This document shows, piece by piece, positions 2 through 48,496 of a stretch of 58,648 bases of DNA (position 1 is the first letter of the stretch; each line of letters opens with the position of its first letter). The notes beneath the pieces were generated by a model. That model was given only the letters and a program-made list of their open reading frames with translations, was not told the origin of the DNA and ran no database searches. The stretch lies in assembly GCA_947389015.1 (NCBI GenBank), contig CANDVA010000018.1, positions 1-58,648 of the forward strand, in the 5' to 3' direction. The translations under genes and the position numbers were made by a program. The DNA comes from an uncultured Clostridia bacterium (GTDB lineage Bacteria > Bacillota > Clostridia > Oscillospirales > Ruminococcaceae).

Positions 2-706
2 TCAATACTATTTATACATGGAATGGCTTCCACAGCAATGCTTTGCTATGAACCAATTTTGAAACATTTGTCAGATTATTATGTGATATTAGCAGAAGTG
101 GATGGTCACAGTGAAAGAACAGATGAACTTGTCAGTCTTAAGAACAATTGCAACGAGATAGAAAATTACATCATAAATAATCTATCTGGTAATTTGTATT
201 GTCTGTCTGGATTTTCTATGGGGGCGACAATGGCTGTTGAAATTATTGGAAGAGGCAATGTTAATGTTGCTAAAACACATTTGGATGCGGCATTTCTGAC
301 AAAGATGGGCTTGTTGACAAAGCCATATGAATATATGTTCTGCAAAGCGGTCAAGCGGATTCAAAACGGAAAAGCAATCCCTAAATATATGATGGACGCC
401 GTTATGGGAAAAGATAACAACAGTATTATCGAAATGCTTTATATGGGCATCACCTCAAATACTATAAAAAAAGCGTGTGAATTTGTGTATAGGTATCATA
501 TTCCTGAGAGTATAAGAAATTACAAGGGGGTTATTTTGTTCTGGAGAGGCTCCAATGAGCAATATCCAAAGAAGAGCGTTGCTTTGTTAAAGAAATATCT
601 GCCCGCTATAATAGATATAGAGATTGAATATATGGGACATGGGCAGTATTTACACGAACATAGCGATGAATATGCAAATAAGCTGATTGAATATCTGCAA
701 AGCTGA
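2..706 (+). CDS. Alpha/beta hydrolase family protein (5' end outside the window)
   Basis: The reading frame is already open at base 2 and runs without a stop into the first ATG (base 23). The residues before that ATG read SILFIHG, the strand and HG oxyanion-hole motif of alpha/beta hydrolases, so the true start lies upstream of the window. The nucleophile elbow GFSMGA (Ser in a G-x-S-x-G context) is present, and a C-terminal GHGQY segment could hold the catalytic His. The substrate cannot be told. No neighbour in the window forms an operon with it: about 125 bases later an independent promoter begins. Family is fairly secure, function is not. Confidence 0.75.
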   Translation, partial: SILFIHGMASTAMLCYEPILKHLSDYYVILAEVDGHSERTDELVSLKNNCNEIENYIINNLSGNLYCLSGFSMGATMAVEIIGRGNVNVAKTHLDAAFLTKMGLLTKPYEYMFCKAVKRIQNGKAIPKYMMDAVMGKDNNSIIEMLYMGITSNTIKKACEFVYRYHIPESIRNYKGVILFWRGSNEQYPKKSVALLKKYLPAIIDIEIEYMGHGQYLHEHSDEYANKLIEYLQS

Positions 707-831
707 TACAGATTCAGTTTATCGGGCAGTGTGCCATCATTGCTCGCTGCCCATTCCCTCATTTTGACGACGGGAGAATTTTATAAGCGTTTTTCAACAC
801 GAAAGAGAAAAGGGACTTTTGAAATACCCGC

Positions 832-860
832 TTGACAAATCGGAAAAAGTGTGATATAAT
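832..860 (+). promoter_or_regulatory. Promoter of the tyrS T-box leader
   Basis: TTGACA at 832-837, exactly 17 bases, then TATAAT at 855-860: a full sigma-A consensus directly upstream of the T-box leader. Confidence 0.85.
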
Positions 861-866
861 ACAAGC

Positions 867-1145
867 AATATGTTAAAAGCGTTGACGGGAAAGCAGTAGC
901 AAAACGGGAATGCCCTTTCAGAGAGTTGTCGGCAGGTGCGAGACAGCGGGCGCGTTTTATGAATTACCTCCCCGAGCGGCTTCGCGAACGGAACAAAACG
1001 GGAACAAGTAGCGGGCACGGGTAAGCCCGTTAAAGCTGTTTAAGGCGGTCTGTCGTTGCGATAATGCCGCAAATTGAGGTGGTACCGCGTTGTACGAATT
1101 TCAGCGCCCTCTCGGAGCTTCGGCTCGGAGAGGGCTTTTTGTTAT
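867..1145 (+). promoter_or_regulatory. T-box riboswitch leader, probably tyrosine-specific
   Basis: The leader carries Stem I landmarks (CAGAGAG around 918 and GGTGCGAGA around 935), the conserved antiterminator T-box sequence GGTGGTACCGCG ending near 1089, and a terminator hairpin at 1106-1135. A UAC codon at 965-967 sits where the ilvA leader of this window has its ATC, with the same number of bases to the following stem, so Tyr is the best specifier reading. A UUA (Leu) reading one base earlier cannot be fully excluded. Uncharged tRNA would stabilise the antiterminator and allow reading into the acetyltransferase gene and tyrS. Confidence 0.9.
1106..1140 (+). terminator. T-box-controlled intrinsic terminator of the tyrS leader
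   Basis: GCCCTCTC pairs with GAGAGGGC, the stem continues with GAGC/GCTC around a TTCG loop, and a run of T follows. It lies directly behind the T-box sequence. Confidence 0.9.
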
Positions 1146-1230
1146 TTTTTTGAAAGGGGGTGTTATCCGTGAGATGTCAACATCTCATCGGCTATGTGCG
1201 GACTTTCCGAAAATTTTCAGGAGGTTTGGC

Positions 1231-1689
1231 ATGATCAGAATTGCAGATATCAATGATCGCGAACGGCTGACGGAACTGTTTATACAGCTTCACCACCGCC
1301 ATGTTGAAATAAAGCCCGAGACGTTCAGAATGCCCGAACGCGAGTGGTTCTCGGAACGGATAACCGAAATACTGAACGACAACGGGCAGACCATTCTCGT
1401 ACACGATAGCGGCGTTATCGACGGCTACGCGGTCGTGAAGATAACAGACGTGAACGCCGAGGAGAAAAAGCCGCGCCGAGTGTGCTATATCGACTGCTTT
1501 GCGGTCGCGGAGGACTGCCGTCGTCAAGGTATCGGCACGGAGCTTTTCGGCGCGGTGAAAGCGTTCGGAAAGGAGCGCGGCTGCACGAGCGTACAGCTCG
1601 GGGTGACTGCGTGCAATACGGACGCGGTCGCGTTTTACAATGAAATGGGGCTTGCTCCCCGTACTATAATAATGGAGGAAAAAATATAA
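1231..1689 (+). CDS. GNAT family N-acetyltransferase
   Basis: A 152-residue protein starting at the ATG at 1231, chosen because AGGAGG lies 7-8 bases upstream; the frame is open further upstream but only through the leader. The acetyl-CoA binding motif A is visible as RRQGIGTEL around residue 100, followed by the typical C-terminal FYNEMGL segment. The acceptor is unknown. It is transcribed behind the tyrosine T-box and ends two bases before tyrS, so it should be made when charged tRNA-Tyr is scarce. That position might point to a substrate linked to tyrosine or to tRNA, but nothing in the sequence proves this. Confidence 0.85.
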   Translation: MIRIADINDRERLTELFIQLHHRHVEIKPETFRMPEREWFSERITEILNDNGQTILVHDSGVIDGYAVVKITDVNAEEKKPRRVCYIDCFAVAEDCRRQGIGTELFGAVKAFGKERGCTSVQLGVTACNTDAVAFYNEMGLAPRTIIMEEKI

Positions 1690-1691
1690 CG

Positions 1692-2897
1692 ATGGAATTA
1701 TATGATGAACTTATTGCAAGAGGACTTATCGCCCAAGTGACTAACGAGGACGAGATACGCAAGATGATAAACGCGGGCAAGGCTACGTTTTACATCGGCT
1801 TCGACCCCACGGCGGATTCGCTGCACGTCGGTCATTTTATGGCGCTCTGCCTTATGAAGCGGCTGCAAATGGCGGGCAACAAGCCGATAGCGCTGCTCGG
1901 CGGCGGCACGGGAATGATCGGCGATCCGTCGGGAAAATCCGATATGCGCAAAATGCTCACGAAAGAGGATATCGACCATAACATCGCGTGCTTCAAAAAG
2001 CAGATGAGCCGCTTTATCGACTTCTCGAACGACAAGGCTATTATGGTAAACAACGCGGACTGGCTGCTCGATCTGAACTACATCGACGTGCTCCGCGAGG
2101 TCGGAGCCTGCTTCTCGGTCAACAAAATGCTGACGTTCGAGTGCTACAAGCAGCGTATGGAGCGCGGTCTGACATTCCTCGAATTCAACTACATGATAAT
2201 GCAGAGCTACGACTTCTATAAGCTGTTCAAGGATTACGGCTGCAATATGCAGTTCGGCGGCGACGACCAGTGGGCGAATATGCTCGGCGGTACGGAGCTT
2301 ATCCGCAAAAAGCTCGGCAAGGACGCTCACGCAATGACCATTACCCTGCTGCTCAACTCCGAGGGCAAGAAAATGGGCAAGACCGAAAAGGGCGCGGTAT
2401 GGCTCGACCCCGAAAAGACCTCGCCGTTCGACTTCTTCCAGTACTGGAGAAACGTCGACGACGCGGACGTTATCAAATGCTTAAAAATGCTCACGTTCCT
2501 GCCTGTCGAGCAGATACTCGAAATGGAGAAATGGGAGGGCGCGCAGCTCAACAAGGCAAAAGAGATACTCGCGTTCGAGCTTACCAAGCTGGTTCACGGC
2601 GAAGAAGAGGCGCAGATGGCTCTCGACGGTGCGAAGTCGCTGTTTGGGGGAGCGGGCAACACCGACAATATGCCGTCCGCGGCGGTAGAGGCTCCCGACG
2701 GAAATATCGGCATACTCGATCTGCTCGTGAATACCAAGCTCGCGCCGTCCAAGCGCGAGGCGAGAAATCTTATCTCGGGCAAAGGTATCGCGGTCGACGA
2801 CGTGGTCATCGACGACCCCAACGCACAGATAGACCTTGCGAAAGAGGTCATCGTCCGTAAGGGCAAAAAGGTGTTCTTAAAGGTCACAAAGGCGTAA
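1692..2897 (+). CDS. tyrS: Tyrosyl-tRNA synthetase
   Basis: Class Ic aminoacyl-tRNA synthetase, 401 residues, the usual bacterial length. The HIGH signature reads HVGH at residues 45-48, preceded by YIGFDPTADSL, and the KMSKS-type loop reads KMGKT at 227-231. The C-terminal 80 residues form an S4-like RNA-binding domain with KREARNLISGKGI. It attaches tyrosine to tRNA-Tyr in the cytoplasm. It follows the GNAT gene with two bases between and is controlled by the upstream T-box. A weak bidirectional hairpin separates it from convergent thrH. Confidence 0.98.
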   Translation: MELYDELIARGLIAQVTNEDEIRKMINAGKATFYIGFDPTADSLHVGHFMALCLMKRLQMAGNKPIALLGGGTGMIGDPSGKSDMRKMLTKEDIDHNIACFKKQMSRFIDFSNDKAIMVNNADWLLDLNYIDVLREVGACFSVNKMLTFECYKQRMERGLTFLEFNYMIMQSYDFYKLFKDYGCNMQFGGDDQWANMLGGTELIRKKLGKDAHAMTITLLLNSEGKKMGKTEKGAVWLDPEKTSPFDFFQYWRNVDDADVIKCLKMLTFLPVEQILEMEKWEGAQLNKAKEILAFELTKLVHGEEEAQMALDGAKSLFGGAGNTDNMPSAAVEAPDGNIGILDLLVNTKLAPSKREARNLISGKGIAVDDVVIDDPNAQIDLAKEVIVRKGKKVFLKVTKA

Positions 2898-2902
2898 AAA
2901 AT

Positions 2903-2936
2903 CGGCTGCTCGTTAATGACGGGCAGCCGTTGTTTA
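2903..2936. terminator. Bidirectional terminator between tyrS and thrH
   Basis: CGGCTGC pairs with GCAGCCG across a 13-base loop; T-rich sequence follows on the plus strand and A-rich sequence precedes it, which suits both converging genes. Confidence 0.65.
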
Positions 2937-2937
2937 T

Positions 2938-3543
2938 TTACTTCGCAAGGCACTCTTTAAGGAACTTCATAAGCTCGCCGTACTCCTCGAATGCGGGGAG
3001 TTCGGGGTAATCCTTTTTAATCTGTTCGGTTGAGCGGAACAGGAAACCGAACTTCGACGCCTGTATCATTCCGAGATCGTTGAAGCTGTCGCCGCCCGCG
3101 ATAGTCTCAAAGCCGATAGACTGCAAAGCCTTGACTGTGGTGAGCTTGGACTTCTCGCAGCGCATTTTGTAGCCCGTGATCTCGCCGTTATCCGCAACCT
3201 CGAGCGAATTGCAGAAGATAGTCGGCAGACCGAGCTTCTTCATAAGCGGACCCGCGAACTGCGCGAACGTATCGCTGATAATGATGACCTGCGAAAGCGT
3301 TCTCAGCTCGTCGAGAAACTCCTTTGCGCCGGGCATGGGGTCGATCTTCGCGATAGTGTCCTGAATTTCCTTTAATCCGAGACCGTGCTCTTTAAGTATT
3401 CCGAGACGCCACTTCATCAGCTTGTCGTAATCGGGTTCGTCGCGCGTCGTGCGCTTCAGCTCGGGAATACCGCTCTCCTGCGAGAACGCGATCCATATTT
3501 CGGGGACGAGTACGCCCTCCAAGTCCAAACAGGTTATATACAT
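2938..3543 (-). CDS. thrH: ThrH-type phosphoserine phosphatase / homoserine phosphotransferase
   Basis: A 201-residue HAD-superfamily enzyme whose N-terminus CLDLEGVLVPEIWIAF matches the ThrH family, in which motif I is DLEGV rather than the usual DxDxT. Motif II appears as IIISDTFAQF and motif IV as GGDSFNDLGM. Known ThrH enzymes dephosphorylate phosphoserine and can pass the phosphate to homoserine, linking serine and threonine synthesis. It is divergent from ilvA, which consumes threonine, and has its own promoter. Which activity dominates here cannot be told from sequence. Confidence 0.88.
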   Translation of the reverse strand: MYITCLDLEGVLVPEIWIAFSQESGIPELKRTTRDEPDYDKLMKWRLGILKEHGLGLKEIQDTIAKIDPMPGAKEFLDELRTLSQVIIISDTFAQFAGPLMKKLGLPTIFCNSLEVADNGEITGYKMRCEKSKLTTVKALQSIGFETIAGGDSFNDLGMIQASKFGFLFRSTEQIKKDYPELPAFEEYGELMKFLKECLAK

Positions 3544-3576
3544 AACTTTGTCTCCTTTTGTTGTTTTTTCCTTTAT

Positions 3577-3605
3577 ATTTTAACACATTCGGACGGGTTT
3601 GTCAA
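3577..3605 (-). promoter_or_regulatory. Promoter of thrH
   Basis: On the minus strand TTGACA (3600-3605), 17 bases, TAAAAT (3577-3582), about 35 bases before the thrH start, which has AAAGGAG as ribosome binding site. Confidence 0.75.
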
Positions 3606-3646
3606 TACGCCTGAATTGCCTCGGAGAAATTTTCCCGAAAAAACTA

Positions 3647-3675
3647 TTGACAAGCAGTGACGTTTGGTGTATAAT
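3647..3675 (+). promoter_or_regulatory. Promoter of the ilvA T-box leader
   Basis: TTGACA (3647-3652), 17 bases, TATAAT (3670-3675). The leader of about 365 bases begins just behind it. Confidence 0.85.
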
Positions 3676-3682
3676 AATTTTA

Positions 3683-4012
3683 TAAATGTGATGATGAGTG
3701 CGCAAAACTTATCCCCATTTTGATTACCTTTTTGTTCGCGGATCGTTTTACAAGGTCGTCCGTAGTTTTGTAAAAAAATTTCAGCGGGATAAGTATTTAA
3801 GGCGCCGTATGGGAATAAAGTCCTTTCAGAGAGCCGACGGTTGGTGAGAGTCGGTAAGACTTTTCTTATATGATCCGCTCGGAGCAGACCGCCCGAACCG
3901 TTATGCGAAGTAAGGCTGTACGGAGTTCCACCGTTAGAGGGAAGTGCATTGACGGATGTACAGGCTGAATTGTATGTTATGACCTTATTCCGTTGGAGTG
4001 GGGTCTTTTTTA
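3683..4012 (+). promoter_or_regulatory. T-box-type leader of ilvA, probably isoleucine-specific
   Basis: Stem I is clear: the base AGCGGGAT around 3782 pairs with ATCCGCT around 3873, the distal part reads CAGAGAGCCGACGGTTGGTGAGAG, and the specifier position holds ATC (Ile) at 3873-3875. That fits threonine dehydratase, the entry step of isoleucine synthesis. A terminator follows at the 3' end. I do not find the usual TGGNACCGCG T-box sequence, so the antiterminator is either diverged or unusual. Paired segments CTGTAC (near 3915) and GTACAG (near 3960) enclose the region where it should lie. Confidence 0.75.
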
Positions 4013-39304: not shown

Positions 39305-40498
39305 TCAGCCCTCCCCGAGCGGGAATACCTTTTCGGGAATAAGCTCCGCCATTGCCGAGGTCGCTTCGCGTGTCAGCCCGTACTCATACCACACGGTCTC
39401 CTCGTTGGGATCCATCCATACCATTATCCCGTTCCAGCCGTTATCGTACACGGACTTGTACTTCTCGGTGAGCGTCATTCCGATCTCTTTCGCGTCGTCG
39501 TTGCCGGTTTCGCCGATAATGCACGGCTTAGCCTCCGCAAGACCGAACTCGGACGGCGATTTGTCGCACGGAAACCCGAAATGCTCTTTCATCCAATTGT
39601 AATAGTGCGTGCTGTAAAAGTCGAGATACGCGTTCTCGCTGCCCGTCAGCTCCTTAAGATACTCGTCCGAGACCTTGTTGCCCTGATATTTATCGGAATT
39701 GTACTTGATCATCGCAACTCCGACGGTAACGGGAAAATCGCTGTTTTCGTGAATTACCACAGCACATTTTCCGAGCAGATACGAAACATTATCCCACGGA
39801 ATCTTGCCGCATTCCGATTCCTCAAATACCCAGTCGGGCTCGTTCATCACGTCAATGGCGAAAATGCAGTTTCTGTCACGATAACGTTCGCAGAAAACCT
39901 GTACATATTTTTCAGCAAATCTGTCCGAATACTCCTTAGACTTTATCAGACCCTGCCACCGCTGTCCGCTCTTTACAGGCGCCTTGAAATGATCGAAAGA
40001 CAGCAGCGTCGGCATAATATAAATGCCGTGCTTGTCAGCGAGATCGAACAGCTTGTCGAGAGCCTCCCAGTGCGTTTCGTTGATATTTCTTACCTTTCCG
40101 TCGTCGGTGAGCCGAACGATACTCTCACCGTTGCAGTTCAGCCAGATACGCGTGCAGTTCACGCCGTCCGCGACAAGCCTTGCGAATTCGGTATTCCAGA
40201 ACTCCTCGTCCATTCCATCGGTAAAGTCGTTCCAGTGCTGCCACGGCGTATTTGTACCGTTTATCCACAATTCTTTCCCCCCGACCATAAACTTAGTTCC
40301 CTCGACACTGACGCGCCCGAGGAGCTTTTGGGGCTGTTCCGGCTCGGTTTCAACTGTCTGGTCGGACGACTCGGAATTACCCGTACTGTCCGAAATGTCG
40401 GAGGATACTCCCTGCTCCGATTTATCGCACCCCGCCAAGCCGCACAGTAAAGACAGTGATAAAGTCACCGCCGCAAACTTCTTAATGGTCTTTTTCAT
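39305..40498 (-). CDS. Secreted GH5-type glycoside hydrolase lipoprotein
   Basis: A 397-residue protein. The signal peptide MKKTIKKFAAVTLSLSLLCGLAGC ends in a lipobox, followed by a Ser/Thr/Glu linker. The catalytic barrel contains VNCTRIWLNC, IDVMNEPDWVFE, where the Glu of NEP is the predicted acid/base, and CIIGETGND, where the Glu is the predicted nucleophile. This is the layout of clan GH-A, family 5 mannanases and cellulases. Substrate unproven; plant mannan or glucan would fit a gut fibre degrader. ATG at 40498 chosen by the signal peptide. Confidence 0.82.
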   Translation of the reverse strand: MKKTIKKFAAVTLSLSLLCGLAGCDKSEQGVSSDISDSTGNSESSDQTVETEPEQPQKLLGRVSVEGTKFMVGGKELWINGTNTPWQHWNDFTDGMDEEFWNTEFARLVADGVNCTRIWLNCNGESIVRLTDDGKVRNINETHWEALDKLFDLADKHGIYIMPTLLSFDHFKAPVKSGQRWQGLIKSKEYSDRFAEKYVQVFCERYRDRNCIFAIDVMNEPDWVFEESECGKIPWDNVSYLLGKCAVVIHENSDFPVTVGVAMIKYNSDKYQGNKVSDEYLKELTGSENAYLDFYSTHYYNWMKEHFGFPCDKSPSEFGLAEAKPCIIGETGNDDAKEIGMTLTEKYKSVYDNGWNGIMVWMDPNEETVWYEYGLTREATSAMAELIPEKVFPLGEG

Positions 40499-40525
40499 AC
40501 TTCTCTCACTTTCGATTTTTTTAAT

Positions 40526-40554
40526 ATTATAGCATAATTCTCCGAAAAATGCAA
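40526..40554 (-). promoter_or_regulatory. Promoter of the GH5 gene
   Basis: On the minus strand TTGCAT (40549-40554), 17 bases, TATAAT (40526-40531), just upstream of the signal-peptide start. Confidence 0.65.
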
Positions 40555-40584
40555 CTGTTTTTTGGGCGCTTACACACTCATCTA

Positions 40585-40613
40585 TTGACAGAGTATTAAA
40601 TTTATGATACAAT
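40585..40613 (+). promoter_or_regulatory. Promoter of the divergent lipoprotein gene
   Basis: TTGACA (40585-40590), 17 bases, TACAAT (40608-40613). Confidence 0.78.
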
Positions 40614-41401: not shown

Positions 41402-41434
41402 AGCAGCCCCCGTTTTTGGAATACGGGGGCTGCT
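41402..41434. terminator. GC-rich terminator hairpin
   Basis: AGCAGCCCCCGT pairs perfectly with ACGGGGGCTGCT around a nine-base loop, between the lipoprotein gene and converging acyl carrier protein gene. Confidence 0.75.
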
Positions 41435-41439
41435 ACTAA

Positions 41440-41516
41440 TCACCCGTTAAAAACTTGACATCTTTGCGCGATCTTACATCTATCGCTGCAAATCTTGTCA
41501 AGTTTTTTAACGGTGA
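41440..41516. repeat. Long imperfect inverted repeat next to the ACP gene
   Basis: The outer arm TCACCCGTTAAAAACTTGACA pairs with TGTCAAGTTTTTTAACGGTGA (one bulge on each side), and inside it TTTGCGCGAT pairs with ATCGCTGCAAA (one bulge) around a nine-base loop. The whole forms a nearly continuous stem of about 30 pairs. It directly follows the ACP stop on the minus strand. Candidates: miniature transposon remnant, or an mRNA-end structure. No terminal repeats of a known insertion sequence were recognised. Confidence 0.75.
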
Positions 41517-41527
41517 TCAGTATGAAA

Positions 41528-41773
41528 TTATTTTTTAGCGCGCTCGGCAACGATATTTATCATCTCGCCGACGTTCTTCATGCCGCTTACCTCTTTCATG
41601 GTAAACCGCATTTTGAACTCCTTCTCGACTGCCGAGATCAGCGTGATATGCTCCAAGCTGTCCCAAGCCTCGATATCGTCCGCGGTGGTTCCGTCCTTCA
41701 GCTCGATATCATCGTCGTCAAACACGTCGCGGAACACCTTTGTAAGCCTGCTTTTGACCGTTTCTCTGTCCAT
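41528..41773 (-). CDS. Acyl carrier protein of the FkbH locus
   Basis: An 81-residue carrier protein. The phosphopantetheine serine lies in EAWDSLEHI, the D-S-L signature, with acidic helices around it. ATG at 41773 lies next to the fkbH stop (TGAAATG); an in-frame ATG at 41791 inside fkbH is possible. It is a dedicated carrier here, not the fatty-acid ACP, judged by its coupling to FkbH and its D-D-D-D-rich early helix. In known FkbH systems such an ACP carries a glyceryl thioester. Confidence 0.92.
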   Translation of the reverse strand: MDRETVKSRLTKVFRDVFDDDDIELKDGTTADDIEAWDSLEHITLISAVEKEFKMRFTMKEVSGMKNVGEMINIVAERAKK

Positions 41774-41774
41774 T

Positions 41775-43565
41775 TCAATTCTCGCTTTCATTTATTTTTA
41801 TCGCCGTAGTCTTCGGCGTATAATTTGCCGTTTCAAGCCGCCAAACGGTATTTCCGGCGGCGTCCGCGGAGACTTGCGCAAATCCGAATTCCTCATATAG
41901 CTTTGCAACCATACCGTTCTTTTTGGTGGGATAATAATATCCGATTATCTCGTCGATACACGCCCTTTGACATTCCTCAACAAGCCTATCGAGCATTGCG
42001 AACTCCATTTCGCGCTTGAGTACGCGGCAGCTCATCAGCCACAGATCGATGTGCAGCGACTTGCCGTCCTTTCTGCCAATAACTACCGACACGATGCCGT
42101 TGTCGCCGAATTTGTCAACGAGCCTGCCGCACAGCCTGATATAGCCGTCGTCGGCAGCCGCAGCCTCCATTTCCGCCTGCGTGTAACGCTTTGTCGTCAG
42201 ATTGAACTGATTGCTCTTGTTGGTAAGCTGAGTGATACGCGGGATATGCACGGGATCGAAATCGCGTATATCCGCTCTCATTTCAAGGCTCTGCAAAAAC
42301 TCCCCGTAGCTCGCGAACTTCTTTTCGGCGGCGGCTCTTTCGGCGTTGGCGCGGTACATCTCGCTTCTCGCCGCGTCGTCCGCGGACAGCGAGGTCACCT
42401 CAAAGAACCCGCACTTGTCCAGCGCGCGGATACATTCCTCGGGGTTATCGAAGTCGATAACCGTGACCTCGGGGAGCTGCGTGCGGACTATCTCGCGCTC
42501 CGCGGGGTTATCGTCAACGAAAACAAAGCTTTCGGGCAGCAGATTAAGCTCCCGCGCCGTCTCCTCGAGATTTCTCCATTTCTCCTCCCAATTTGCCTTG
42601 ATACACGCGAAATCATCGGGGTGCAGCGCCGCGTCGGGGTGATTTAGCCCCTCGAGCGCGTTTTCATGATCGTTCTTCGAGCACACCGTCAGCAACACGC
42701 CAAGCTCCTTGTGCGCCTTGACGTACTGCTGCAAACGCAGGAAACTCTGTCCCTCGGAAGTCTCGCTGCCTATCTCGATACCCGACTGTCCGTCGTCGCC
42801 GATAACGCCGCCCCAGAGCGTGTTGTCAAGGTCGAGTGCGAGAACCTTCTTGTTCCGCCCCATGACCGAGCAGACGATATTCGCGAGACTGTACGCGAAT
42901 TCGGGTATCGCCGAAACGCTCATCGCGTACTTGTACAAATGCCAGTGCCGCAGCTCGTGCCAGCGCTCCAGACCGTAAGCCGCCGAAAGATAGTTGATAT
43001 CGTGGATATAGAAGTTTTTATGCGACCGAGCGTAGTCATAGAGCTTACAGTTGAGCCGCGTGATAAAGTCGATACGCCCGTATGCGCAGCCGACCTCGCG
43101 GTTGCCGAGAAGTCTCTCGCTCGGCAACTCAAAGTTATTCTGAATGATAACACACCCGAATTTCTCCGAAATCGCCGTCCACATACGCTCGTACCGCTCG
43201 TATTCGCGGCTGAGCTTGTCGGCGACCGACTGCGCGTCCTCGTTGACGCGCGGCTTTTCCTCGATATTGCGCGAGGTGGTGTGAATGAACACCAGCTCGG
43301 GCTTGAACTCGTCAAGCTCCTTGTTCCCGAAGACCGCGTCGCTCCAGTACTGCGCGTACTCCGACTCGTAAAAGCTCGGCGCTATCCCCCTGTCGCGCAG
43401 AAACAGCTCCAGTATCTTTATGATATCGGAGGTGGTAGACCCGCCGAGCACCGCTATCTTCAGCGGCACCGCGCCCTGCCCGCGCTCTTTCAGAACACGC
43501 AGCAGCTTTCTCTTGGTCTGCATTATCATATCCCCGTCAAAAGGACGGCTAAGCTCAGGCAGCAT
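41775..43565 (-). CDS. FkbH-like HAD-family glyceryl-ACP loading enzyme
   Basis: A 596-residue protein in three parts: an N-terminal SGNH-like region (LKIAVLGGSTTSDIIKIL, HTTSRNIEEKP), a HAD domain with DLDNTLWGGVIGDDG near residue 245, SFVFVDDNPAEREIV and KSNQFNLTTKRY, and a C-terminal GNAT-like region. Characterised FkbH-type enzymes take 1,3-bisphosphoglycerate, remove phosphate and pass the glyceryl group to an ACP. ATG 43565 follows GGAGG. It lies between a DHHW gene and the ACP. Confidence 0.92.
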   Translation of the reverse strand: MLPELSRPFDGDMIMQTKRKLLRVLKERGQGAVPLKIAVLGGSTTSDIIKILELFLRDRGIAPSFYESEYAQYWSDAVFGNKELDEFKPELVFIHTTSRNIEEKPRVNEDAQSVADKLSREYERYERMWTAISEKFGCVIIQNNFELPSERLLGNREVGCAYGRIDFITRLNCKLYDYARSHKNFYIHDINYLSAAYGLERWHELRHWHLYKYAMSVSAIPEFAYSLANIVCSVMGRNKKVLALDLDNTLWGGVIGDDGQSGIEIGSETSEGQSFLRLQQYVKAHKELGVLLTVCSKNDHENALEGLNHPDAALHPDDFACIKANWEEKWRNLEETARELNLLPESFVFVDDNPAEREIVRTQLPEVTVIDFDNPEECIRALDKCGFFEVTSLSADDAARSEMYRANAERAAAEKKFASYGEFLQSLEMRADIRDFDPVHIPRITQLTNKSNQFNLTTKRYTQAEMEAAAADDGYIRLCGRLVDKFGDNGIVSVVIGRKDGKSLHIDLWLMSCRVLKREMEFAMLDRLVEECQRACIDEIIGYYYPTKKNGMVAKLYEEFGFAQVSADAAGNTVWRLETANYTPKTTAIKINESEN

Positions 43566-43579
43566 TTGTTGTCCTCCAA

Positions 43580-44758
43580 TCAAAGTTTATCGGCGAGCTT
43601 GTATTGATTATCGCCCGTAGCACTGAACGAATTCATGCAGAACAGCACGTCGGTAAGTCCCTCGTCCTTTACGAGCTGCGAAATACTCTTCTCGAAGCCG
43701 CGCATATCGACCACCCAGATGTCCTCGAATGAATTTGCGAGACACGGCGCAAAAGCGTTTCCGTAGCTGTCCTTGACGATAACGAGCTTTCTCCCGTTGC
43801 CGACGTCTGTATGAATATGTGCGACCTCGCCGTCACCGCCGAAAAATACCAAGTACCACTGTACCACCGCGAGATTGTCAATCGTTTTAAGGAACATTCC
43901 CGCCTCATACGGATTTTCAAGGCTCTGCGTATAATAGGTGACCGTATATTCGTTCTTCGGCTTGTAATATGTGAACGTATCGGGATTGTTTTTTACAAGA
44001 GGATTATCGCCGCTGTAACCATACATAGTACCGACGTAGCCCTCCATTGTCACCGTCTCGTAATCGGACAGCGGAGCGAACGGCACCTGCGCGGTCTTGG
44101 CAAACTCCTCCGCGGCGTAATAAGCGCCGAGCGGCTGCCAGTGATGGTCTGTGCGAAAGTAGATATCCTCATCAACGTGCTGAGCCAAAGCCGAATAAGC
44201 GTCCACGGGGATAACGCCGTCCAGATAGCCGTTCAGATAGTCGATATTATCCCACTCGCTGCCCGACATATACGCAAGGTCGTCGGGAAGATAGAACGAC
44301 ACCGCCGTGGGAGCTACGAGCGAGAACACGTTTACGCCGTCGCCGACCATCTGCTTTAACTGATTGAGCGTCTCGGCGTAGTTCTGACCTCTTTCATAAC
44401 CGCCGCCGTAAAGGTCTATGGCGCGCCCGTCGTCCAGTACCAGAACCGAGCCGGACATCTCGCCGCCCTGATTATCGGTCGGAATTACAGGCTTATCGTG
44501 AGAGGTGCTCTCATCTGTGCTTTGAGTGCCCGTGCTCTCGGGAACGCTATCCGTGCTTTCGGAAGTGGCTGCGCTGTCCGAGCTGTTGGAGTTGTCCGCC
44601 TTGTCCGTGGTACTCGTGTCCGATTTATTATCGGTCGAGCCGCCCGAAGAAACGGGATTAGGCGCGGATATTCCCGAATTGCCGCCCTGTTCGTTATTGC
44701 AAGCCGTCAGCGACAACAAAACCGCCGTCATTACCAACACTGAAATTACCTTTTTCAT
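43580..44758 (-). CDS. DHHW family lipoprotein (AlgX/AlgJ-like), second intact copy
   Basis: A 392-residue protein with signal peptide and lipobox LSLTACNN near residue 20, then a Ser/Thr/Asp-rich linker to about residue 95. The body has RTDHHWQPLGAYYAAEEFAK (DHHW at 204-207) and VIVKDSYGNAF with the candidate nucleophile S331, so the Asp, His and Ser of the AlgX/AlgJ SGNH-type triad are all present. It ends LFCMNSFSATG. RBS CAGGGGG. It should act outside the membrane with the MBOAT protein. Confidence 0.88.
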   Translation of the reverse strand: MKKVISVLVMTAVLLSLTACNNEQGGNSGISAPNPVSSGGSTDNKSDTSTTDKADNSNSSDSAATSESTDSVPESTGTQSTDESTSHDKPVIPTDNQGGEMSGSVLVLDDGRAIDLYGGGYERGQNYAETLNQLKQMVGDGVNVFSLVAPTAVSFYLPDDLAYMSGSEWDNIDYLNGYLDGVIPVDAYSALAQHVDEDIYFRTDHHWQPLGAYYAAEEFAKTAQVPFAPLSDYETVTMEGYVGTMYGYSGDNPLVKNNPDTFTYYKPKNEYTVTYYTQSLENPYEAGMFLKTIDNLAVVQWYLVFFGGDGEVAHIHTDVGNGRKLVIVKDSYGNAFAPCLANSFEDIWVVDMRGFEKSISQLVKDEGLTDVLFCMNSFSATGDNQYKLADKL

Positions 44759-44818
44759 TATATATTCCCCCTGAAATATGTATAGTATAGCATAAGAATG
44801 CTGATTAAACCGAATTTA

Positions 44819-45168
44819 TCATATAATATTGACAAGATTTTTCCGCTCAATTCCCGCCGCGCCGAACGTATTCATACAAAACGGCGCGTCCGTCAGGATT
44901 ATCTCTCACAAGCAGATTTTCGCCGTCTCACAGTCGGAAAGCGGAACGAACGGCGTCAGCGCCTCTGCGTACTTTCGGCGCTGTTTTCGCCGCTGTTCCC
45001 GGGCGGACTTCTCCCGGGCTGCTCTTCCGAACAGCCGTCCGGAATATCCGTTTCTCTGATAAATACGCTCCGACCCGCATCCGAAACGTCCAGCTGCTCC
45101 GCGCCGCACGCGGTAAACGACAGCATAGCCGCCGTCAGCGCCCAAAGCGACCAAACGGTCTTTTTCAA
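44819..45168 (-). pseudogene. Remnant of a third DHHW gene
   Basis: Three recognisable pieces: a lipoprotein signal MKKTVWSLWALTAAMLSFTAC (TTG start at 45168, AAGGGGGAATAT upstream as in the intact neighbour); LTPFVPLSDCETAKI, matching FAPLSDYETVTM of the neighbour; and LTDAPFCMNTFGAAGIERKNLVNII with its stop, matching the C-termini of both intact copies. The first piece is in another frame from the other two, and a TGA at 44906-44908 separates the latter. About 70 percent of the gene, including the DHHW motif, is deleted. It lies between the two intact copies. Confidence 0.85.
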
Positions 45169-45315
45169 AACATATTCCCCCTTTTTGTTATTTACATATT
45201 TATTATAACATTAAAATGTCAATTTTGCATCAAAAAAGTCTGAAGTATTATATACAATATTCTTACGATTTTATGAAGATTAAAGGGTCGCCTCCTTTTT
45301 AAGGATGTTTTGGTC

Positions 45316-46788
45316 TCAGATTATATTGGAAAGATTTTCCTGATTAACGCCAGTAGCGCTCGACGGGTTCATTGCGAACAGCAGATCGGTAATTCCCTCG
45401 GACTTGCACAGCTCGGTCACGCTTCTCTCGAAATAGCGCATATCCACCACCCATATCTCCTCGAACGAGTTTGTGAGGAACGGCGGCAGCGCGTTGCCGT
45501 AGCTGTCCTTTACTATCATCAGTCTGCGACCGTTATGGCAGTCGGTGTTGACGTTGACCGCGTAATTGTCGCCGCAGATATTCACGAGATACCAGCTCAC
45601 CACGTCAAGACTGTCGATATCAAGCATAAGCGCGCCCGTATACTGATATTCCAGCGCGTGAGTGTAGAAATCGGTCGTGAATTCGTTCCGCGGCTTGTAA
45701 TAGGTGAACGTCTCAGGATTGTCCTTAATAAGCTGATTTTCGCCGCTGTATCCGTACAGCGTGCCAACATAGCCCTCGCGCGAGATCTTCTCGAAATTCT
45801 CATCGTTCAGCTTGGCAAAATCGACCTGCGCCACTTTCGCGAACTCCTGCGCCGCGTAGTAAGCGCCCAGCGACGACCAGTGATGATCGGTGCGCATAAA
45901 GATATTCTCGGAGGTGTGACGGTCAAAGACGGAATACGCGTCTATCGGAATAACTCCGTCAAGAAAGCCGTTGGTATAGTCGATAACGTCCCACTCGTTG
46001 CCCGCAAGGTCGGCGTGCTCCTCGGGCATATAGAACGACACCGCCGTCGGCGACACTAACGAATAAACGTTCACGCCGTCGCCGAGTATCTGCTTGTATT
46101 GGTTGATAGTCTCCGCGTAGTGCTGACCTCCCGAATAGCTGCCGCCCGAAAGCGCAAGAGCGCGTCCGTCGTTCAGCACAAACACCGTGCCCGACATCAT
46201 TCCGCCGTTGGGGTCGATATCGTTCGGCTTTTCGGAGCTTGTCGACGAGCTTGTAACGGTCGTACTTGATGAAGTCGTTGTGCCGGAGCTTGTCGACGAG
46301 GTCTCGGGAGGCGTAACAACGACGACGGGCGGCTTTTTCGACGACGAGCTTGAGTTGTCTGGACGATCGGGTCTGCTCTCGATATTCGGCAGCGGACCGT
46401 GAAGCGTCTCGCCGCTGCCGTACTTGATACCGAGATTAGCCCTGAACGCCGAGATCATAGACTTGAAAGTGCTCCTCATGGGCACGGTATCGTTGTAAAA
46501 TTCCGCAAAATCCTTGGTGAATTCACCCTTGAAGTAGCTTTCGAAAGTGAACGTCGGACACTTCGCAAGGTCGCGGTTTTCCTCCTCGGATATCTTCGGG
46601 CGCTCTCCGAATGTCATAAACAGAGCTCCAAACGCAAATATCGCGATAATAACGGCGATATTCAGGCTGAACAAATTGTTTTCACGCCGCCTTGTTTTTG
46701 CCAGAACGCGCCTTTTCCGGCGCTCGAGCCTGAGCTCGCGATCCTCCCTTTCAGCGGCAAGCTGTCTGCCGCTCTTTTTCTCTGCCAT
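45316..46788 (-). CDS. DHHW family membrane-anchored protein, first intact copy
   Basis: A 490-residue protein. Unlike its neighbour it is anchored by one membrane helix (LFSLNIAVIIAIFAFGALFMTFG, about residues 38-60) behind a very basic cytoplasmic start. A Ser/Thr linker follows, then MRTDHHWSSLGAYYAAQEFAK (DHHW near 301-304) and LMIVKDSYGNALPPFL. The extra N-terminal part DLAKCPTFTFESYFKGEFTKDFAEFYNDTVP is typical of longer DHHW and AlgX-like proteins. ATG at 46788 is 15 bases behind the MBOAT stop. Confidence 0.9.
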   Translation of the reverse strand: MAEKKSGRQLAAEREDRELRLERRKRRVLAKTRRRENNLFSLNIAVIIAIFAFGALFMTFGERPKISEEENRDLAKCPTFTFESYFKGEFTKDFAEFYNDTVPMRSTFKSMISAFRANLGIKYGSGETLHGPLPNIESRPDRPDNSSSSSKKPPVVVVTPPETSSTSSGTTTSSSTTVTSSSTSSEKPNDIDPNGGMMSGTVFVLNDGRALALSGGSYSGGQHYAETINQYKQILGDGVNVYSLVSPTAVSFYMPEEHADLAGNEWDVIDYTNGFLDGVIPIDAYSVFDRHTSENIFMRTDHHWSSLGAYYAAQEFAKVAQVDFAKLNDENFEKISREGYVGTLYGYSGENQLIKDNPETFTYYKPRNEFTTDFYTHALEYQYTGALMLDIDSLDVVSWYLVNICGDNYAVNVNTDCHNGRRLMIVKDSYGNALPPFLTNSFEEIWVVDMRYFERSVTELCKSEGITDLLFAMNPSSATGVNQENLSNII

Positions 46789-46802
46789 TCCCGAACACCC
46801 CC

Positions 46803-48206
46803 TTAATAGTTCCAGTACAGGAACGCGTTTGTGGTCGCGTCCACCATCAATATACTGCTCGTCACAAGCAATATCGCGCACACCGCCGTGCCCGATATCG
46901 ACAGCGCGGTCTTAGCCTCAAGCGAGCGAGCCGCGAGCTTCTTCCCGAGATCAATAAGCGGGAACGTACAGATAATAGCCGCGATAATAAGCCACAGATT
47001 TGAGCTCAGCGACATAGCCTCGAACGAGCTGCTCCAGCCGTTGGGATTTAGCGGCGTAATATTGCGGAAAAACAGCTTCAGCTGATCGAAATCTTCAAAG
47101 AAGAAAATACCGTAGCCGATAAATATTACAAGCTTGCTGTAAATATGCCGTATCACGATAGGTATCTTGTTCATGCGCTTTTTCCCGATGACCGTCTCCA
47201 ACACTATAAACGCGCCGTAATACAGTCCCCAGATAACGTAATTCCATGACGCGCCGTGCCAGACACCCGTACACAACCACACCAGAAACAGGCTGAAATA
47301 TTTGTTCCTGTGACCGAAAAACGTTATCGGCATAAGATAGTCACGGAAGAACGACCCGAGTGAGATATGCCACCTCTGCCAGAACTCCTGAATATCCTTG
47401 CAGATGTAGGGATGATTGAAGTTTTCGTTGAAGTGAAAGCCGAATATGCGACCCATTCCGATAGCCATGTCGGAATAGCCCGAAAAGTCAAAGTAGATAT
47501 AGAGTGAATATATTATGATACCGTACCATGTACCCGCGACGGTCAGTCTGTCAATGCTTTCGCCGATAGTGTTCTCGACGATCCTGTAAAGCTGATCGGC
47601 AAGCACGACCTTTTTCGCAAGTCCGACGACAAGTCTCGTCAGTCCCTCGCTGAGATCCTTCATGGTAGTCTTACGGTTATCGATCTCCTCCGCGATAGTA
47701 CTGTAACGCACGATAGGTCCCGCGATAAGCTGCGGGAACAGACAGATGTAGAGAAGTAATTTCGGGAAGCTTTTCTGCGGCTCGACCTTTCCCCAATAAC
47801 AGTCCACGATATACGAGATTATCTGAAACGTGTAAAAGCTGATACCCGCCATTATCGCTATCTCGGGCACTGGGAACTTTGCTCCGAATATAGCGTTGAC
47901 GTTCTCGACCAGAAAGCCGCTGTACTTGAACACAACGATCATTCCGATATTGTAGACCAGTCCGCCCCCCACGATCAGCTTTTGCAGCTTTTCACTCTTG
48001 ACCGCGCCGATACCTATTCCGACGAAATAATTTATCACCGCCGAAAGCAGCAAAAACAATATCCTCACGGGCTCTCCCCAGGCGTAGAACATCAGTGAAA
48101 AAACGATCAGCACAACGTTCTTGCCTTTAAGCGGCTTTACAAGTCCATACACGATAAGACAAAGCGGTAAAAAAAGGTACATGAAAATAAGGCTGGAAAA
48201 TATCAT
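46803..48206 (-). CDS. MBOAT family O-acyltransferase (AlgI/DltB-like)
   Basis: A 467-residue protein with about ten membrane spans. Family motifs: YAWGEPVRILFLL, FPQLIAGPIVRYSTI, DFSGYSDMAIGMGR, EFWQRWHISLGSFFRDYL and CTGVWHGASWNYVIWG with the catalytic His. It moves an acyl group across the membrane to an outer polymer. ATG at 48206 has GGGGAG upstream. First gene of the acylation operon; the DHHW, FkbH and ACP genes follow. Confidence 0.94.
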   Translation of the reverse strand: MIFSSLIFMYLFLPLCLIVYGLVKPLKGKNVVLIVFSLMFYAWGEPVRILFLLLSAVINYFVGIGIGAVKSEKLQKLIVGGGLVYNIGMIVVFKYSGFLVENVNAIFGAKFPVPEIAIMAGISFYTFQIISYIVDCYWGKVEPQKSFPKLLLYICLFPQLIAGPIVRYSTIAEEIDNRKTTMKDLSEGLTRLVVGLAKKVVLADQLYRIVENTIGESIDRLTVAGTWYGIIIYSLYIYFDFSGYSDMAIGMGRIFGFHFNENFNHPYICKDIQEFWQRWHISLGSFFRDYLMPITFFGHRNKYFSLFLVWLCTGVWHGASWNYVIWGLYYGAFIVLETVIGKKRMNKIPIVIRHIYSKLVIFIGYGIFFFEDFDQLKLFFRNITPLNPNGWSSSFEAMSLSSNLWLIIAAIICTFPLIDLGKKLAARSLEAKTALSISGTAVCAILLVTSSILMVDATTNAFLYWNY

Positions 48207-48460
48207 TTGTACACTCCCCAATTTTTTATATTTATATGTAAAGTATGTGCAGAAAAACAAACCCGAACGTTATTTATATTTATGCATAAGAATATTGTCG
48301 GCTCACGCGAGCCATTCCCCAAAATATTATCTCTGTATTATATATAACGTGCGCATAATACGCGGCGCACGGTAAGTCCGAGATCGCTTTTATATTCAAA
48401 TCATTCACACCCGAGAAATTATTTTTCGTACTCCCGAGCGGTACAAGAGAAAAATCTCCT
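48207..48460 (-). other. 5' leader of the MBOAT operon
   Basis: About 255 bases between promoter and start codon contain no gene. Two hairpins are visible: GTGCGC/GCGCAC at 48349-48370 and GGCTC/GAGCC near 48300. It is long enough for a regulatory RNA, but I could not match a known riboswitch class. Confidence 0.5.
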
Positions 48461-48467
48461 ATATAAC

Positions 48468-48496
48468 ATAATACTACATTTTCCCACGCTTGTCAA
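48468..48496 (-). promoter_or_regulatory. Promoter of the MBOAT-DHHW-FkbH operon
   Basis: On the minus strand TTGACA (48491-48496), 17 bases, TATTAT (48468-48473). Confidence 0.8.

Follow-up and report, generated by a model that had tools for sequence, protein, structure and literature searches.

A candidate carrier-fed surface acylation cassette combining FkbH, an acyl carrier protein, MBOAT and DHHW proteins in Clostridia

Introduction

MBOAT membrane acyltransferases paired with SGNH-type outer transferases form O-esters in the known cases (PMC12148441). Pairs of MBOAT and DHHW proteins are tied to O-acetylation (PMC9487903, PMC7710045), and glyceroyl is found on a bacterial surface sugar in another form, a pseudaminic acid derivative of T. 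forsythia (PMC9912281). On the supply side, FkbH homologues transfer glyceryl from D-1,3-bisphosphoglycerate to discrete acyl carrier proteins (ACPs) in vitro (PMC3625739), and such loading of discrete ACPs or carrier domains is also described in PMC7489565 and PMC8949500. Here we describe a gene cassette encoding MBOAT, DHHW, FkbH and ACP proteins in a 58,648-nt stretch of DNA (the window; contig CANDVA010000018.1 of assembly GCA_947389015.1) from an uncultured Clostridia bacterium of the Ruminococcaceae.

The cassette is probably a self-contained system for carrier-fed surface acylation, in which glyceryl-ACP would charge a tyrosine of the MBOAT, then a serine of a DHHW protein, and finally form an ester on a glycopolymer; we infer both the chemistry and the acceptor. 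The arrangement behind this proposal, an FkbH-ACP supply arm serving an MBOAT-DHHW export arm, is well supported by comparison across genomes. Surface decoration of this kind is apparently new to description, MBOAT-SGNH acylation itself being already known. In one collection of open-licence papers, bioRxiv excluded, no account was found in which FkbH supplies an MBOAT that serves a cell-surface polymer. The two families meet there only in work on cyanobacterial aeruginosins or suomilides (PMC10143770, PMC13122637); in PMC10143770 they act at separate steps of a peptide, and FkbH is absent from PMC9359912.

Organization of the cassette

All cassette genes lie on the minus strand, within a unit that spans 48496 to 41402 from promoter-like site to hairpin, with concordant results from the list of open reading frames (ORFs) and the family profile searches. 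The features are as follows.

48468..48496, minus strand: sigma-70-like promoter TTGACA-17-TATTAT, 11/12 matches, upstream of the unit
46803..48206, minus strand: MBOAT (PF03062), 467 residues, catalytic His317 (WHG)
47298..47375, minus strand: MBOAT segment after RWH, residues 278-303, FFRDYLMPITFFGHR in place of ...IPLGGNR
46806..46823, minus strand: C-terminal acyl-shuttle motif FLYWNY (F-x-Y-x-x-aromatic), Tyr464
45316..46788, minus strand: DHHW1, 490 residues, SGNH-type outer transferase (TDHHW, KDS, DMRY)
44822..45168, minus strand: non-functional remnant of a third DHHW gene, consisting of a lipoprotein-type start and, spread over different frames, three short matches
43580..44758, minus strand: DHHW2, 392 residues, lipoprotein-type signal (LSLTAC)
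41775..43565, minus strand: FkbH-type enzyme, 596 residues, with SGNH-like N domain, HAD phosphatase and GNAT-fold C domain
41528..41791, minus strand: ACP, 87 residues (or 81 from 41773), invariant WDS serine
41402..41522, strand unassigned: inverted repeat and G+C-rich hairpin with tail TTTATTT, 3' of the ACP gene

The original prediction, made from the letters of this DNA, placed these genes in one minus-strand unit with a promoter at 48468, and both the ORFs and the families agree with it. The promoter is the top scorer among eight promoter-like sites in the region; the number of sites is itself no evidence, since shuffled sequences yield 7.0 (sd 2.8). The ATG starts are probably at 48206 (MBOAT), 46788 (DHHW1) and 43565 (FkbH), later than in the longest ORFs, as judged from ribosome-binding-like sequence and the lengths of relatives' proteins. 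At the other end, a 27-nt inverted repeat (arms 41434-41460 and 41496-41522, 85% complementary) adjoins a strong hairpin (41402-41434), and together they likely form the end of the unit; the hairpin is absent from the sites listed by the terminator scan.

The four protein families named in the original prediction are all recovered. The MBOAT, expected from its catalytic WHG motif, scores 87.9 bits with PF03062 (cut-off 27), and its His317 is invariant in an alignment of 44, as is the tyrosine of the shuttle motif in its alignment. An F-x-Y-x-x-[FYW] C-terminus is present in 57 of 57 MBOATs, a count that includes one (L094:2-769; loci, genomes and contigs carry our L, G and C labels) that belongs to another pair upstream, keeps PLGG and stands outside the 56 cassette MBOATs discussed below. 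The F-x-Y-x-x-F type of motif, defined in PMC12148441, is known from PatA and DltX. Neither this motif nor the altered MBOAT segment described below figured in the original prediction, and both lend support to a mechanism. Structure models were made of the MBOAT and FkbH as single chains, and the predicted MBOAT structure matches the DltB fold despite a sub-cut-off DltB score. The locus thus combines an MBOAT fold with invariant His, a C-terminal shuttle motif and an adjoining SGNH partner with Ser-His-Asp, the features of an MBOAT-SGNH pair.

Both intact DHHW proteins match PF14286 (145.6 and 152.2 bits, cut-off 25) and keep the catalytic Asp, His and Ser that had been read in them; these residues and an Arg are invariant in the alignment. 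DHHW1 has a predicted N-terminal membrane anchor, and DHHW2 shares 57% identity with it over 353 aligned positions. Of the PatB1 blocks TDHHW, KDS and DxRY (named in PMC9487903), DHHW1 has all, while block II of DHHW2 reads DMRG. All three searched motifs occur in 71 of 75 DHHW proteins longer than 350 residues, and four lack one. No NCBIfam model, DltD included, matches either DHHW protein at E <= 0.01. The decayed third gene sits between the two intact ones, and in the near relatives L127 and L128 a short DHHW-like ORF accompanies three DHHW genes of full length, while L129 has two plus one; the lineage therefore seems to gain and lose DHHW copies rapidly.

FkbH scores 287.4 bits with TIGR01686 (cut-off 146.65) and is a single copy in the 2.9-Mb genome. 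Its HAD motifs DLDNT and DDNP are intact, and D245, D247, D351, D352 and C513, the last lying in the GNAT-fold C domain, are invariant in the alignment of 44. The ACP falls slightly below the Pfam cut-off (PF00550, 20.3 versus 20.8 bits); the serine from which a carrier had been proposed, in a D-S-L context, is the WDS serine invariant in 18 aligned sequences, the window's included. Tetronate-type genes for glycerate utilisation (FabH-like, acyltransferase, dehydratase) were not found in the cassette and four scanned neighbours.

Conservation of the gene grouping

Two sets of relatives were compared. In set 1, 197 genomes of the family were scanned, 72 of which hold FkbH over the cut-off, at 77 places; 60 of these places were fetched and compared together with the window. 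Among the resulting 61 stretches, ACP adjoins FkbH in 54, DHHW is present in 20, and all four genes in 18. DHHW genes number a few per genome on average, so the 20/61 with DHHW beside FkbH lie far above the chance level of about one in a hundred that rough arithmetic gives. Set 2 holds the best 80 among 560 relatives confirmed in a scan of species genomes: all four genes occur in 37, FkbH, ACP and MBOAT without DHHW in 20, FkbH and ACP only in 13, DHHW, FkbH and ACP in 5, and other combinations in 5.

Pooled, the sets contain 64 FkbH loci with DHHW, of which 55 keep all genes on one strand in the order MBOAT-DHHW-FkbH-ACP; the median gap between FkbH and ACP is 1 nt. The other nine comprise seven DHHW-FkbH-ACP, one DHHW-FkbH and one MBOAT-DHHW-FkbH, four of them cut by contig ends (L060, L141, L157, L200). 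At least two genomes are common to both sets (L054/L130, L082/L147), which makes the two counts partly dependent on each other. The order kept in relatives shows a grouping beyond chance. The original prediction had proposed such a survey and had named loss of the grouping in relatives as evidence against it; the grouping is kept instead. Among the named organisms with the cassette are Ruminococcus flavefaciens 007c (L193) and Neglectibacter sp. X58 (L160). The window's own genome holds two MBOATs and three DHHW proteins, with a second, PLGG-type MBOAT-DHHW pair (L036) on contig C7, beside which no FkbH or ACP was found.

FkbH-ACP pairs elsewhere adjoin MaoC, SDR and GNAT genes, a second context in which the pair recurs. 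The pair is followed by a MaoC, SDR and/or GNAT-like gene in L037, L038, L041, L046, L055, L065, L066, L068, L090 and others, and in L053 an FkbH-ACP-SDR row lies within a NeuB/cytidylyltransferase cluster. The four FkbH contexts require 19 changes on the FkbH tree (116 rows), so that FkbH-ACP behaves as a plug-in acyl supply. An additional ORF is located between ACP and MBOAT in L061 (4387-4791, with a glyoxalase family match) and in L067 (7694-8095, with a similar start).

The putative docking segment of the MBOAT

AlgI-type acetyltransferases carry the sequence IPLGGNR. PLGG-type MBOATs read ...DY(V/L)YIP(L/M)GGNR or near it after RWH, whereas the cassette MBOATs read ...FFRDYLLYxPIFGKR or the window's version given above. 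The GG-less form is found in 55 of the 56 cassette MBOATs (54 distinct, two being copies from genomes held twice), the remaining one having PIGG. In contrast, P[LM]GG is kept by 21 of 21 MBOATs in 20 DHHW-centred control stretches from FkbH-negative genomes, including G180 of the window's genus. These controls were hand-picked among the DHHW matches listed, not drawn at random, and no FkbH or ACP was found beside their MBOATs. In an earlier set, all 26 MBOATs that are paired with DHHW and have no FkbH next to them show P[LM]GG.

The GG-less form extends beyond the DHHW-bearing cassettes. It is present in 19 of 20 MBOATs that have ACP and FkbH near and no DHHW partner; the neighbour genes of three of these loci (L061, L063, L067) look polysaccharide-like from the starts of their sequences. 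A true DltB (L210) is also GG-less, and so is the MBOAT of L221, directly beside a carrier gene and behind a gene for a pyridoxal phosphate (PLP) decarboxylase, with no FkbH seen in the short stretch. The L221 row (2-3731) consists of PLP decarboxylase, carrier, GG-less MBOAT and a protein that resembles GDSL weakly, below the cut-off, and is possibly a carrier-fed MBOAT system delivering an amine-bearing group. FkbH-linked MBOATs without a visible ACP mostly keep GG (L075, with SLGG, L080, L152 and L159). In L152 (2-3266) and L159 (6289-9673) the FkbH gene overlaps that of the PLGG-keeping MBOAT, with no ACP seen; FkbH perhaps feeds the MBOAT by another route there.

Beyond H289 (in RWHMS), 6bug has M302, V305, I306, M309 and K312, which are DltC contacts on or near helix HC (PMC11035591). 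The GG pair aligns at DltB V305/I306 by ungapped offset, an approximate placement. A tree was built from 111 MBOATs. Its 46 rows of DHHW-type cassette MBOATs group as a single clade (Shimodaira-Hasegawa-like approximate likelihood ratio support, SH-aLRT, 100), nested in a group of 70 DHHW-type MBOATs, and GG loss and carrier linkage change four times each on the tree. An MBOAT counted as linked when an ACP gene lay no more than 8.5 kb away on its own strand. Some labels were set by hand: ACP was scored present for L210, which scores as a true DltB, and left unassigned for L151_14547 and for L200 at a contig end, while GG loss was scored as present for L138 (PIGG) and absent for L075. The tree leaves out truncated L183 and L175, duplicates L105, L114 and L220, and 13 rows more than 90% alike.

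Split loci offer a separate view. Five stretches have DHHW-DHHW-FkbH-ACP without an MBOAT (L089, L144, L169, L176, L180), and if the GG-less MBOAT is the cassette's partner, each of these genomes should hold one elsewhere. All five do, as one full-length GG-less MBOAT (LLYVPIFGKR) outside the stretch, together with one or two full-length PLGG-type MBOATs each. L176 and L180 are close kin, so the test amounts to about four independent cases. The L180 genome has two further short MBOAT fragments that do not reach the segment, and in genome G132 the GG-less MBOAT is adjoined by its own DHHW. One split locus is linked to a solved structure: over 352 residues, PDB 4NZK (EUBSIR_00411, an uncharacterised DHHW protein of Eubacterium siraeum, the name being from PMC9487903) has the same sequence as a DHHW protein of L089 (7752-12334), whose genome has the GG-less MBOAT elsewhere with an adjoining DHHW.

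Proposed mechanism and alternative explanations

In the proposed mechanism, FkbH would take D-1,3-bisphosphoglycerate from glycolysis, its HAD domain would remove the phosphate, and the glyceryl group would be moved to the phosphopantetheine arm of the ACP, as expected from its family. Glyceryl-ACP may then approach the MBOAT from the cytoplasm and dock at the segment of residues 278-303, the site of DltC in DltB, as its signature suggests. By analogy with PatA and DltX, the MBOAT would use His317 to load the group on its own Tyr464. Membrane-anchored DHHW1 and lipid-anchored DHHW2 would, on the model of PatB1, accept the group at the KDS serine and hand it on to a hydroxyl group of a glycopolymer outside the cell. 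The acyl group is most likely glycerate by analogy; the cassette contains no acyl-altering gene, which makes plain glycerate the simplest product. The polymer that receives it is probably made elsewhere and would be an exopolysaccharide or a secondary wall polysaccharide, not a teichoic acid; no recurrent polymer-making gene was seen in the 16 flank families that relatives share most often (64 loci).

The same machine might carry another cargo, if some other phosphorylated hydroxyacid, lactate-like or not, is what FkbH loads, or if glyceryl-ACP is altered before export by enzymes encoded elsewhere. FkbH-ACP beside MaoC, SDR and GNAT genes at other loci, and once in the NeuB/cytidylyltransferase cluster, suggests that glyceryl-ACP may be processed further. 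However, such clusters occur in none of the 19 fetched DHHW-bearing stretches, and none of the 16 flank families looks like an enzyme for this purpose from its sequence starts, so we consider another cargo unlikely. It is quite improbable that the genes are unrelated neighbours, with MBOAT-DHHW being an acetyl-CoA (coenzyme A)-fed pair for polysaccharide O-acetylation, like PatA1/PatB1 or the ccs pair of clostridial cellulose, and FkbH-ACP serving another pathway. The published link of such pairs to O-acetylation (PMC9487903, PMC7710045) and the many FkbH-ACP loci without MBOAT are compatible with it. Yet the order is fixed and tightly spaced in 55 of 64 loci, the MBOAT segment is changed in the lineage linked to FkbH but unchanged in its DHHW-type relatives that lack FkbH, the GG-less MBOAT persists even in all five split genomes, and the window's genome already has a PLGG-type pair. 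Glyceryl in a polymer backbone or glycosidic position, instead of a decorating ester, is very improbable: residue M of Clostridioides difficile lipoteichoic acid (LTA) seems to carry glyceric acid on C1 (PMC10642750), whereas known MBOAT-SGNH pairs make O-esters (PMC12148441) and the genome has no match to teichoic polymerase families.

Several observations weigh against the proposed mechanism. The presumed glycerate specificity of FkbH is taken from polyketide relatives, and the occurrence of FkbH-ACP beside MaoC, SDR and GNAT genes makes the pair not specific to acylation. The FkbH Cys motif was not seen by pattern search in 2 of 116 rows (L051, L075), neither from a DHHW-bearing cassette, and the window's shuttle motif ends in Tyr, not Phe. 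Among MBOATs, the exception to the 19 of 20 is the second one of L151 (14547), with PLGG at 4.4 kb from the ACP; L138 has PIGG; L079 is GG-less with FkbH and no ACP seen; L188 is GG-less with its ACP on the opposite strand; and L210 shows no carrier gene in its short stretch. The DltB helix has about nine extra residues at the segment, which leaves residue-by-residue equivalence unsure. Moreover, when GG loss is compared with carrier linkage across independent pairs, only three such pairs exist (sign test p 0.5, not significant), and with so few events the correlation may be lineage marking.

More tentatively, and with the balance close to even, these data may point to a widespread, undescribed O-glycerylation of a clostridial glycopolymer through FkbH-ACP without an ATP-dependent ligase. 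It would come with an MBOAT donor code, in which a docking segment without IPLGGNR distinguishes carrier-fed enzymes (DltB, the cassette family and a second ACP-adjoining lineage) from CoA-fed ones. If the cassette works as proposed, a glycolytic intermediate directly supplies the acyl group with which gut and rumen Clostridia, including R. flavefaciens 007c and, through the identity to 4NZK, E. siraeum, decorate their envelope, and this would tie surface chemistry to glycolytic flux. Carrier-fed MBOATs would then be far broader than Dlt, the segment would provide a sequence test for carrier versus CoA use, and 4NZK would gain a likely function. Base-labile glycerate could vanish in standard polysaccharide work-ups, which may explain the absence of reports.

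Other features of the window

A conserved leader RNA was considered for the unit and rejected, the leader of about 260 nt not being kept among near relatives. At gathering scores, an Rfam scan of the window gave one T-box leader (RF00230, 99.1 bits, 873-1114, plus strand), one tRNA and nothing else. Downstream of the unit, a glycosidase-like protein is encoded at 39305-40612 on the minus strand (Apiosidase 31 bits, GH5 weak). It was rejected as a unit member: a plus-strand gene and the hairpin intervene, and no such protein was noticed, from sequence starts, among the 16 flank families.

Comparison with known systems

The original prediction called the locus Dlt-like. An FkbH-ACP supply arm of MBOAT-SGNH export acylation is supported by gene order, docking segment, shuttle motif and split-locus co-occurrence; a teichoic Dlt system is not supported. 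There is no DltA in the cassette, and the best match in the genome, on another contig, reaches 238 bits against a cut-off of 560. Searches of the genome (rated 96% complete) at E <= 0.001 gave no match to teichoic polymerase families of the Glyphos_transf (TagB/F) or Sulfatase (LtaS) type, the MBOAT reaches 160 bits against the DltB equivalog cut-off of 375, and neither DHHW protein matches DltD. A canonical Dlt/teichoic system was rejected accordingly; one LCP protein in the genome scores over its cut-off.

Compared with DltABCDX, the cassette has FkbH in place of the AMP ligase and DHHW proteins in place of DltD, carries the shuttle motif on the C-terminus of the MBOAT itself where Dlt has DltX, and belongs to a genome without DltA over the cut-off or teichoic polymerase matches. 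It resembles PatA1/PatB1, which O-acetylates the secondary wall polysaccharide of Bacillus cereus, and the clostridial ccs pair in joining an MBOAT to a DHHW SGNH transferase (TDHHW, KDS, DxR). It differs from both in its dedicated FkbH and ACP, and in an MBOAT without the IPLGGNR that the unlinked relatives examined have kept. In encoding FkbH together with a discrete ACP, it is like the abyssomicin (AbyA2/A3), tetronate and methoxymalonyl-ACP pathways, whereas it has no FabH, dehydrogenase or polyketide synthase partner and would deliver its acyl group to a membrane acyltransferase.

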